Source: Dictyoglomus sp. (GTDB lineage: Bacteria > Dictyoglomota > Dictyoglomia > Dictyoglomales > Dictyoglomaceae). From it: a stretch of 35,288 bases of DNA. The stretch lies in contig JANXBZ010000012.1 of NCBI GenBank assembly GCA_025060475.1, positions 48,146 through 83,433 on the forward strand. The letters are read 5' to 3'. The notes beneath the pieces were generated by a model that saw only the letters and a program-made list of their open reading frames with translations, searched no databases and was not told where the DNA came from. Of the stretch, positions 18,336 through 22,094 are shown piece after piece. Positions within the stretch are counted from its first letter, which is position 1. The number at the start of each line of letters is the position of its first letter. A program made the translations under genes and the position numbers.

Positions 18336-18734
18336 TTGTTCTTTGAATTTACAGTCTCTACACCTTCAAAGACTGCTTTAGTAGATATTACTGAAAAAAT
18401 TGAGGATTGTATTAGGAAAAGTAATGTAAAAGAAGGAAGATGCTTTATTTTTATTCCCCACACTACTGCAGGGGTCATTATAAATGAAAATTATGATCCT
18501 AGTGTTGTGAGGGATATTCTAAACACTCTTGAGAAATTAATTCCTTGGAGCATGAATTATTCTCATGCGGAAGGAAATGCTCCTGCACATATAAAAAGCA
18601 CTATTCTTGGGAATCAGGTGGTAGCTTTTATTCAAAATGGAAGATTAAAATTAGGAACGTGGCAGGGAATATTTCTTGCAGAGTTTGATGGCCCAAGGGT
18701 AAGGAAAGTTTGGGTTGACATAGTTGGAGAATAG
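18336..18734 (+). CDS. yjbQ: YjbQ/UPF0047 family protein
   Basis: 132 residues, the usual family length. Visible motifs: FIPHTTAGVIINENYDPSV (44-62) with the conserved histidine, NYSHAEGNAPAHIKSTILG, then GTWQGIFLAEFDGPRVRKVWV at the end. E. coli YjbQ has been reported to have weak thiamin phosphate synthase activity; the true role is uncertain. Start at TTG 18336, set by AAGGAGG at 18321-18327. It is divergent from rtcB. It should not be confused with archease, a different small family often found beside rtcB. Confidence 0.9.
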   Translation: MFFEFTVSTPSKTALVDITEKIEDCIRKSNVKEGRCFIFIPHTTAGVIINENYDPSVVRDILNTLEKLIPWSMNYSHAEGNAPAHIKSTILGNQVVAFIQNGRLKLGTWQGIFLAEFDGPRVRKVWVDIVGE

Positions 18735-18759
18735 GTTTAAACTCTTAAAAAGAAGGTAA

Positions 18760-18780
18760 TCCCTTATTTTTTAGAAGGGA
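18760..18780 (+). promoter_or_regulatory. Small hairpin that may cover the ribosome-binding site of the 25-residue ORF
   Basis: TCCCTT (18760-18765) pairs with AAGGGA (18775-18780) around a 9-base, T-rich loop. The right arm overlaps the GGGAGG (18777-18782) that precedes the ATG at 18790. The stem is only 6 bp, and weak at high temperature. Confidence 0.3.
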
Positions 18781-18789
18781 GGAATAAGT

Positions 18790-18867
18790 ATGGCTTGGTA
18801 TTGGTGGGTAATAATAATTGTAGTAATAATACTCTTAATTTGGTATTTCACAAAAGGAAAAAAATAG
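18790..18867 (+). CDS. 25-residue single-span membrane peptide (hypothetical)
   Basis: The frame opens at ATG 18790 with AAGGGAGG at 18775-18782, 7 bases upstream, and closes at TAG 18865-18867. The peptide starts MAWYWW, continues as an unbroken run of Val, Ile and Leu for about 13 residues, and ends WYFTKGKK. An aromatic belt, a hydrophobic core and a basic C-terminal tail are what a small membrane peptide needs, with the tail probably in the cytoplasm. It lies between yjbQ and a palindrome or terminator. No family recognised; the good ribosome-binding site and regular composition argue that it is real. Confidence 0.65.
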   Translation: MAWYWWVIIIVVIILLIWYFTKGKK

Positions 18868-18890
18868 TTAAAGTTTTTGGGATTTTTGCT

Positions 18891-18924
18891 TTAAAAGGGA
18901 TGGGATTAATCCCATCCCTTTTAA
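18891..18924. terminator. 34-nt perfect palindrome, probable terminator or operator before pncA
   Basis: The sequence reads identically on both strands over 34 bases. As RNA it folds into a 15-bp stem with a TTAA loop, with A4 before and T4 after a GGGATGGGA core, the same build as the terminator at 16752-16786. It ends 4 bases before the pncA ribosome-binding site, leaving no room for a promoter after it. It may therefore be a leaky terminator or attenuator, or an operator; a weak TGC-TTTAAA box at 18887-18895 overlaps its left end. Confidence 0.7.
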
Positions 18925-18939
18925 TATGGAGGTGAAAAG

Positions 18940-19488
18940 ATGAGATCAGCTCTTTTAATAATTGATATGATATTTGATTTTGTATACGGTAAATTTGGAA
19001 ATCCTTATGCTCAAGGAATAGTTCCTAAAATAAAGGATCTCATAGATTCTGCACGGGAAAATAATATTCCTATCTTTTATCTTGTGGATACGCATTCTAA
19101 AAATGATCCTGAAATGTCTCTTTGGGGCGAACATGCTATGGAGGGAGAAGAAGGCTCAAAAATAATTTCTGAGCTTTCTCCAAAGGAAGGAGATTATATA
19201 ATAAAAAAGAAAGTTTATAGTGGTTTTTTTGAAACAGATCTTGAGAAAAAATTAAAGAATTTAAATATTAGTACTTTATATCTAACAGGAACAAGTACCC
19301 ATATTTGTGTTCTTCATAACTCTGCTGATGGATTTTATCGAGGATTTAAAATTGTAGTGGTATCTGATGCAGTAGCATCTTTTGTTCCCGAGGAACATGA
19401 TAGAGCTTTAAAGTATATGAAGGAAATTCATGGTGCTGAGATTATAACTTCTGATGTAGTAAAGGAGAGGTGGAAAAAAGGTGAATGA
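18940..19488 (+). CDS. pncA: Nicotinamidase-like isochorismatase-family hydrolase
   Basis: 182 residues with the catalytic triad of the cysteine-hydrolase family: D9 (LLIIDMIFDFV), K91 (KKKVYSGF) and C123 (GTSTHICVLHNSADG). D50 and H52 (VDTHS) and H65 (WGEHAMEG) match the metal-binding part of nicotinamidases. The reaction would be nicotinamide to nicotinate plus ammonia. The next gene, overlapping by 8 bases, encodes nicotinate phosphoribosyltransferase, which strongly supports this role over other isochorismatase activities. GGAGGTG precedes the ATG directly after the 34-nt palindrome. Confidence 0.85.
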   Translation: MRSALLIIDMIFDFVYGKFGNPYAQGIVPKIKDLIDSARENNIPIFYLVDTHSKNDPEMSLWGEHAMEGEEGSKIISELSPKEGDYIIKKKVYSGFFETDLEKKLKNLNISTLYLTGTSTHICVLHNSADGFYRGFKIVVVSDAVASFVPEEHDRALKYMKEIHGAEIITSDVVKERWKKGE

Positions 19489-20729: not shown

Positions 20730-20864
20730 ATGAAAAGGACTTATCAGCCAAAGAAACATCATAGACAAAGAGTTCATGGATTTTTAAGAAGAATGAGAAC
20801 TCCTGGTGGAAGAAGAGTTTTAAAAAGAAGAAGAGCAAAAGGAAGAAAGAGATTGGCGGTATAA
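20730..20864 (+). CDS. rpmH: 50S ribosomal protein L34
   Basis: 44 residues, the standard L34 length: [18 protein letters not shown], then [20 protein letters not shown] and KRLAV. This nearly invariant, very basic protein binds 23S rRNA. GGGAGAGG lies just upstream of the ATG. The rpmH-rnpA-yidD-yidC-jag-mnmE order is widely conserved; in many bacteria dnaA and the replication origin lie on the other side of rpmH, but here pncB does. Confidence 0.98.
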
Positions 20865-21254
20865 TTGAGTTTATTTTCCTTTCCAAAACATGAAAGACTC
20901 AAAAAGAAGAAGGATTTTAAAAGAATCATAAAGGAGGGAAGGGTCTATACCTTTCCTCCTTTTATGGTATATATAAGAAGGGGAAGTGATGTTAGAAAAA
21001 TAGGGATAATTGTTAATAAAAAAGTAGGATCTGCAGTAGTGAGAAATAGATTAAAAAGATTAGTAAGGGAAGTTTATAGATTGAATAGACCTTATCTTGT
21101 CGATGATGTGGAGATGATTGTGATTATAAAACCCTCAGATAGAATAATTAAAAATTTCTGGGAAATGGAGAAAATTCTAAAAAAAATATGGCAGAATGCT
21201 AATATTTTTAAAGATGTTGAAAAAAGTAGTAATTCTTCTAATAAAATTTTATAA
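20865..21254 (+). CDS. rnpA: Ribonuclease P protein component
   Basis: 129 residues. RnpA is the protein cofactor of the RNase P ribozyme that trims tRNA 5' ends. The N-terminal [19 protein letters not shown] and the RNR signature [19 protein letters not shown] (54-72) are both clear. Translation starts at TTG 20865, the base straight after the rpmH stop; no separate strong ribosome-binding site is seen, so re-initiation by ribosomes finishing rpmH is likely. The 3' end overlaps yidD by 41 bases. Confidence 0.95.
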
Positions 21255-21468
21255 ATATTTTATATCTCCAGCTCTTCCTCATTCCTGTAGATTTTATCCC
21301 ACATGCTCCACATATACTTTAACTGCCATTGAAAGATATGGGATTTTAAAAGGAGGGCTTCTGGGAATTAAAAGAATACTAAGATGTCATCCCTTTAATC
21401 CAGGAGGCTTTGATCCTGTTCCAGAATATATAAGAAAAGAAAAATTAAATAGGAGGAAAAAAGAATGA
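21214..21468 (+). CDS. yidD: Membrane protein insertion efficiency factor YidD
   Basis: 84 residues from ATG 21214. An in-frame ATG six codons earlier (21196) is possible, but [19 protein letters not shown] matches the family start. The diagnostic [20 protein letters not shown] (24-43) with three cysteines (C25, C31, C58) and [14 protein letters not shown] (57-70) are complete. YidD helps YidC insert membrane proteins and sits on the cytoplasmic side of the membrane through its N-terminal amphipathic helix. It overlaps rnpA (41 bases) and yidC (ATGA). Confidence 0.95.
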
Positions 21469-22094
21469 TACAATTTTTAGTGGATATCTTAGGAAAAATA
21501 TTGGAATTTTTTTATTCTTGGACTAATAATTATGGACTTGCCATAATTTTCTTGGTTATTTTTGTTAGAATTATTTTATACCCTTTGGTTCAAGCCCAGC
21601 TTAAATCCCTTCTTCTTATGCAAAAGATACAACCCGAGATTCAAAAACTTCAACAAAAATTTAAAGATGATCCCCAAGCTCTAAATAGAGAAATTATGCT
21701 TCTCTACAGACAATATAAAATAAATCCTGCTATGGGATGTTTACCTTTAATTCTTCAATTTCCCATTCTCATTGCCCTTTATCAATTACTTGTAGGTTAT
21801 AAATATGCGACTACCCCTACCTTTCTTTGGATCTCTGATCTCACAAAGCCTGATGTTCTCCTTTTACTTCTTATGGGAGTAACCCAGTATTTTTCAGGAA
21901 AAATAACTGCTTTTCCCGCTTCTCCCGAGGCAAGAAAACAACAGGAACTAAATAATATTATTATGTCTGTATTATTTACAGGTATGTTCTACTTTTTTAA
22001 TATACCTGCAGGGGTTATGCTTTACTGGTTTACTTCTAATCTTTTCCAACTACTTCAACAGTTTATAGTAGTGAAGCTTCATTTAGGAGGCTAA
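21465..22094 (+). CDS. yidC: Membrane protein insertase YidC (Oxa1 family)
   Basis: 209 residues, the short form without a large periplasmic domain and without a lipobox. TM1 (about 24-44) contains R35, the conserved groove arginine ([11 protein letters not shown]). A charged cytoplasmic hairpin ([27 protein letters not shown]) follows, then [23 protein letters not shown], and two to three further helices ending [17 protein letters not shown]. It inserts proteins such as ATP synthase subunit c, alone or with SecYEG. It overlaps yidD by 4 bases and precedes jag by 4. Confidence 0.95.

Follow-up and report, generated by a model that had tools for sequence, protein, structure and literature searches.

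A conserved 25-codon gene of Dictyoglomaceae encodes a putative single-span membrane microprotein

A conserved small gene in Dictyoglomaceae

Comparative sequence analysis indicates that positions 18790-18867 of a 35,288-nucleotide stretch of Dictyoglomus sp. DNA (the whole stretch analyzed, hereafter the window) are a real, selectively conserved protein-coding gene. Its product, of 25 residues, is predicted to cross the membrane once, and we see about an even chance that it is an accessory or regulatory microprotein that works by binding sideways to a larger membrane protein. A very small gene that lies outside the searched family libraries can thus be established as real through sequence comparison alone. 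The gene is a concrete target for the function of single-span microproteins in poorly known anaerobes, and Dictyoglomus, being culturable, provides a place for testing their role.

The gene and its putative signals are arranged as follows.

18715 to 18743, plus strand: sigma-70-like promoter, TTGACA-N17-TAAACT, whose -35 box overlaps the final yjbQ codons.
18775 to 18782, plus strand: ribosome-binding site AAGGGAGG, in which GGAGG ends 7 bases ahead of the ATG.
18790 to 18867, plus strand: small gene of 25 codons and a stop, encoding MAWYWWVIIIVVIILLIWYFTKGKK, a predicted single-span membrane microprotein.
18894 to 18921, plus strand: terminator-like hairpin AAAGGGATGGGATTAATCCCATCCCTTT, with a short T run behind the stem.

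At these positions the first-pass annotation had proposed a small gene, of a size usually missed, that would encode a single-span membrane peptide and have its own ribosome-binding site. Re-translation reproduces the position, frame and translation exactly, AAGGGAGG lies at 18775-18782 with a purine-rich equivalent (GGAGG or GGGGG) at the same position in all seven Dictyoglomaceae genomes, and the sequence evidence set out below supports the gene. Domain searches identify yjbQ (UPF0047) on its upstream side and, downstream, a member of the isochorismatase family and then a gene whose product has quinolinate/nicotinate phosphoribosyltransferase domains. The annotation's remark that this position gives no clear role is borne out: the neighbors differ in Atribacterota (EF-G-like, leuS-like) and in viruses (lysis genes), so that yjbQ and nicotinamide salvage tell little about the function of the small gene. 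A little downstream, at 20730-22094, the window holds frames that by eye resemble rpmH, rnpA, yidD and yidC. YidC is an inserter of small membrane proteins; the proximity of its gene by itself says nothing about a link.

A search of 41 genomes recovers the small gene in all seven Dictyoglomaceae (E 6.5e-11 to 2.2e-9), and a profile search finds a single copy in each. Matches in three genomes outside the family and second matches in two genomes reach only E 0.16 or worse within frames of 173-821 residues; these (G013, G023, two in G024 and the second in G004) were dropped as long-frame or weak matches. Inspection of the close relatives for frameshifts and stops shows that all seven genomes keep the 25-codon frame, with no stops. 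The peptides are 80-100% identical to that of the window, and 19 of the 25 positions are invariant across the seven Dictyoglomaceae.

The pattern of base changes points to purifying selection on the frame. Variation affects 25 of the 75 columns of the codon alignment, 18 of them third codon positions, and among the 21 genome pairs the 7 with unsaturated dS have dN/dS values of 0-0.063. The six relatives differ from the window's gene by 5-18 bases, yet by only 0-5 residues (0, 1, 1, 4, 5 and 4). Random placement of equal numbers of base changes, with 20,000 trials per relative, gives means of 3.9-12.2 residue changes (P ≤1.5e-4 for each relative) and introduces a stop in 39-76% of trials. The non-coding flanks, compared by eye in the seven genomes, are far less similar than the frame. 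A structured RNA in place of a protein was considered and rejected: the fold of 18735-18940 has an unremarkable z of -1.05 against shuffles, and the changes fall mainly on third positions. An Rfam search of the window returned no RNA family match.

Promoter-like box, hairpin and probable transcription unit

The small gene looks like a complete transcription unit of its own, which would be transcribed alone into a predicted transcript of ~175 bases and translated into the 25-residue microprotein. A promoter-like box, TTGACA-N17-TAAACT or TTGACA-N17-TAGAAT, stands 60-82 bases 5' of the ATG in all seven genomes, agreeing with 10-11 of 12 consensus bases at a spacer of 17; when the sequence upstream in each genome is dinucleotide-shuffled 500 times, 0-19 of the shuffles reach its score. 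TTGACA-N17-TANANT has a single exact match in the window, the box upstream of the small gene. Five matches occur when one mismatch is allowed, which is the chance level, and the four promoter-like sites found near the small gene, with 2.8 expected, are not above chance, so the weight for the promoter rests on conservation. Because the -35 box overlaps the yjbQ coding sequence, this conservation could itself stem from coding. In G006, however, the sequence 5' of the small gene differs, and yjbQ is found on a separate contig with the rtcB-like neighbor it usually has; the small gene there retains TTGACA-N17-TAGAAT, and the yjbQ tail reads TGAGCA versus TTGACA in the other genomes. This separation is one event, from one fragmented genome that is 72% complete.

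A terminator-like hairpin follows the frame in all seven genomes, its sequence differing among them; that of the window starts 26 bases past the stop. Three genomes (G003, G004 and G006; loci L003, L005 and L006) have more sequence separating the hairpin from the nicotinamidase-like gene. This stretch contains TTTGCTATAATARTAGCRAA, an inverted repeat that is imperfect, includes a TATAAT box, is perhaps an operator and is absent from the window (18922-18939) and its two nearest relatives.

The hairpin raises the alternative of a leader peptide, in which translation of the Trp-rich frame would control read-through into the nicotinamidase-like gene. The frame has four Trp codons and the hairpin follows closely, and only ~18 bases separate the hairpin from the next gene in the window and its two nearest relatives; the nicotinamidase-like gene therefore probably depends on read-through, which makes a leader role possible, alone or in addition. 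Conservation, however, extends beyond the Trp codons to the entire hydrophobic core, and the downstream genes differ among Dictyoglomaceae, Atribacterota and viruses. The one candidate competing pairing seen in the window uses bases 5' of the ribosome site and by eye is not retained in the relatives, and the unexceptional fold score and the Rfam result likewise argue against a leader, which we regard as highly improbable. A hairpin sequestering the ribosome site (TCCCTT of the window pairing with AAGGGA) was rejected because the other genomes, read by eye, do not keep it.

A type I toxin peptide restrained by antisense RNA would likewise be a short hydrophobic single helix, and the Dictyoglomaceae peptides have a charged tail. 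We nevertheless give this reading hardly any weight: the gene is present in one copy per genome and conserved family-wide, and the 321-base stretches of the seven genomes hold no minus-strand promoter-like site of at least 10 of 12 consensus bases. Weaker minus-strand sites (9 of 12) are present in the window.

Relatives in Atribacterota

Homologues of the small peptide outside Dictyoglomaceae, 22-30 residues long, occur in Atribacterota and on four virus contigs. A degenerate pattern run over the genome collection returned 40 stretches. Nine were judged to contain a small frame of the family type: six come from Atribacteria/Atribacterota, and the other three repeat known Dictyoglomaceae genomes. 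The remaining 31 were judged chance, among them a Cyclobacteriaceae frame of 59 residues that includes a similar string (L045). Strong ribosome sites precede Atribacterota small frames such as MADLAWYWWAAIIGAIAYLIWYFAGD.

Profile A4 matches 19 of 50 Atribacterota genomes, and the wider profile A5 adds G430 as the twentieth carrier. The setting is distinct from that in Dictyoglomaceae: an EF-G-like gene lies directly upstream in 18 of the 20 carriers (the G426 contig begins at the peptide locus, and the upstream of G430 is outside the count), and a leuS-like gene lies farther downstream, both named by eye. A hairpin follows the frame in all 18 loci in which a script located the frame, out of 19 tried. 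Ahead of the frame, TTGTTT or TTGTCT, a gap of 16-17 bases and TATAAT are found in six of these 18 loci, and no such box in the other 12.

Of the 30 Atribacterota genomes without a family match, 20 were inspected downstream of their best EF-G-like match. A script that listed every W-x-W string there, and hydrophobic frames preceded by a ribosome-site-like sequence, yielded no countable member. The place is mostly N in G427, where the end of a similar frame (YYFYGE, stop) is legible by eye and was left uncounted; L336 and L342 have WYWII strings ~790 bases on, with no fitting small frame. Matches in G278, G398, G412 and G439 and the second matches in G387 and G424 were dropped as long-frame or weak. 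The second match in G426 (L176, G426:C129) is a separate 33-residue frame, MEWYWWALIGVGVVVIGYVKIKVLQKMRDKSKK, which has a good ribosome site, sits after a permease-like gene and was not counted.

Two samples of 386 genomes contained no further member outside Dictyoglomaceae and Atribacterota. One returned the seven Dictyoglomaceae and one weak match containing a stop; the other returned 20 Atribacterota, two Dictyoglomaceae and one match inside a 502-residue frame. This wider distribution is drawn from the two samples and one strict pattern, and divergent members elsewhere are possible.

Viral members and lysis genes

Four viral contigs (L072, L099, L115 and L136) carry members, each in a region with lysis genes. 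An LLH holin (PF09682, E 1.1e-6 and 1.6e-6) is located 3' of the peptide in L099, directly next to it, and in L115, after one lipoprotein-like frame. The other two contigs encode a glucosaminidase endolysin 5' of the peptide (L136, E 1.2e-7; L072, E 4.5e-10), in L072 at a distance of ~0.9 kb with other genes in between. Immediately 5' of the WYWW peptide, L072 and L136 also have another very small hydrophobic frame (MGIIQWLIGGALGIIYFLWWISLLEYFV and MIFSWLIGGGLLAALIMWWLSLFQYF, respectively), and they share a downstream protein containing EVFPGFTI. Relaxed viral patterns added no firm member, the 124 matches parsed comprising the four known cases and the ambiguous L258, a possible fifth viral member whose frame, MIMFLGLAWYWWVAIILFLLWVIKTT, sits in an apparent phage replication region. 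The phage collection gave no DNA or protein match.

Of the 20 Atribacterota carriers, 13 have a relative of the L115 holin, as do none of the five Dictyoglomaceae searched, which makes Atribacterota plausible hosts of the four viruses. Loci L197-L206 of Atribacterota hold a chromosomal LLH holin (PF09682), followed in several by an M15 peptidase (PF08291) and a small protein with a weak resemblance to YvrJ. This is a phage-like lysis cassette retained by many Atribacterota genomes (13 of 20 searched).

These viral neighborhoods make lysis control the main rival to an accessory role: the peptide would be a phage holin- or antiholin-like helix, its chromosomal copies domesticated or restraining phage lysis. 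Consistent with this are the placement of all four firm viral members, the L115 holin relatives in Atribacterota, and matches of five of the 27 aligned members to phrog_297, the PHROG holin family, which are very weak (best E 0.54). The four viral cases, however, form two pairs of similar arrangement and perhaps two events, and L258, if a member, sits in a replication region. The chromosomal copies are single and conserved in place, and their neighbors at the Atribacterota and Dictyoglomaceae loci are not lysis genes. Dictyoglomaceae lack relatives of the L115 holin in the five genomes searched, and reading 10 of the chromosomal holin loci turned up no WYWW frame. Taken with these points, a lysis peptide appears unlikely.

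Probable common origin of the peptides

Profile A6, built from only 21 Atribacterota and viral sequences with no Dictyoglomus rows, was run on 41 genomes. It recovers the small gene in all seven Dictyoglomaceae at E 1.1e-6 to 1.6e-4, against a best match of E 0.0128, within a 502-residue frame, in the 34 others. The profile thus provides good but not final evidence that the Dictyoglomaceae, Atribacterota and viral peptides share a common origin, the sequences being short and hydrophobic and their neighborhoods differing.

Convergence on a generic Trp-flanked helix would explain the likeness differently and leave a gene that is real but restricted to Dictyoglomaceae. Hydrophobic 25-mers carry little information, the gene neighborhoods are dissimilar, the pattern yields chance matches (only 9 of 40 stretches judged members), and similar strings occur in other settings in L045 and L258. 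The recovery of all seven genes by a Dictyoglomus-free profile, together with the exact WYWW-WYF spacing and small-gene architecture common to both groups, speaks against convergence, which we rate as distinctly unlikely.

Peptide form and proposed role

Alignment of the 27 members reveals an invariant W-Y-W and a second aromatic cluster that closes the hydrophobic core, as expected for a helix anchored at the two membrane faces. For one 30-residue Atribacterota member, AlphaFold2 predicts a single helix over residues 2-27 with a mean pLDDT of 91.7, a single-sequence model of limited weight. The Lys-Gly-Lys-Lys tail, which the first-pass annotation had counted as part of an idealized single-span peptide, holds for Dictyoglomaceae, to which it is confined among the 27 members; elsewhere short, often acidic tails stand in its place, so charge sets no common orientation.

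Because the peptides fit no known family, we infer function from form and setting only. In the accessory reading, which we prefer, the microprotein would pass through the cytoplasmic membrane a single time, its helix being short (~18 residues) and its depth set by an N-terminal Trp-Tyr-Trp-Trp ring and a C-terminal Trp-Tyr-Phe ring. It would contact a larger membrane protein side by side as an accessory or regulatory single-span subunit, and phages would have recruited this small helix to their own lysis regions. Expression, membrane insertion, orientation, the protein partner and phage uptake of the helix are all parts of the model that we infer. Against an accessory subunit, no partner gene co-occurs across both phyla and the viruses, and no named family supports such a role. 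A helix shared between host and phage, with which Atribacterota and Dictyoglomota guard or tune a membrane protein and whose phage copies time lysis via the same contact, seems to us a rather improbable extension.

Comparison with known families and systems

The window peptide has no Pfam match at E 0.001, and the 27 members match no convincing Pfam family (best BatA 0.0059, FtsH_ext 0.052 and, for one member, FixQ 0.49). Five members compared with NCBIfam show nothing approaching the cut-off, PADLOC assigns none of the 27 to a defense system, and the peptide matches no solved structure. PHROGs likewise offers no convincing family for the 27. Eight of them match phrog_13092, a 58-position phage family of unknown function, with a best E of 0.0051 that counts for little in a library of 38,880 families; the peptide of the window has no match to it. 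None of the titles and abstract openings listed by the literature searches concerns this peptide. As far as searched, in the libraries and literature named, the peptides form a new family of a known kind, the single-span bacterial microproteins; GMSC-type catalogues may hold it unnamed.

CydX, KdpF, AcrZ and MgtR are small single-span bacterial accessory proteins that usually go unannotated. The peptide resembles them in size class, in its one hydrophobic helix and in being of a kind often overlooked by annotation, but differs in having no Pfam or NCBIfam match and no larger partner gene alongside.

Small transmembrane proteins also occur in phage lysis cassettes, as described in PMC9671378. 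The viral members are alike in lying in holin/endolysin regions, whereas the chromosomal members lie elsewhere, and the peptides stand apart in their 22-30 residues and fixed WYW motif. Holin_LLH (PF09682), which adjoins two viral members, is a separate protein of >100 residues and no homologue of the peptide.

In form the peptide also resembles the WALP peptides, synthetic models of a helix with Trp at both membrane faces. Trp is placed at both faces here too, but WALP is a designed sequence, whereas the microproteins are a natural family with defined conservation.
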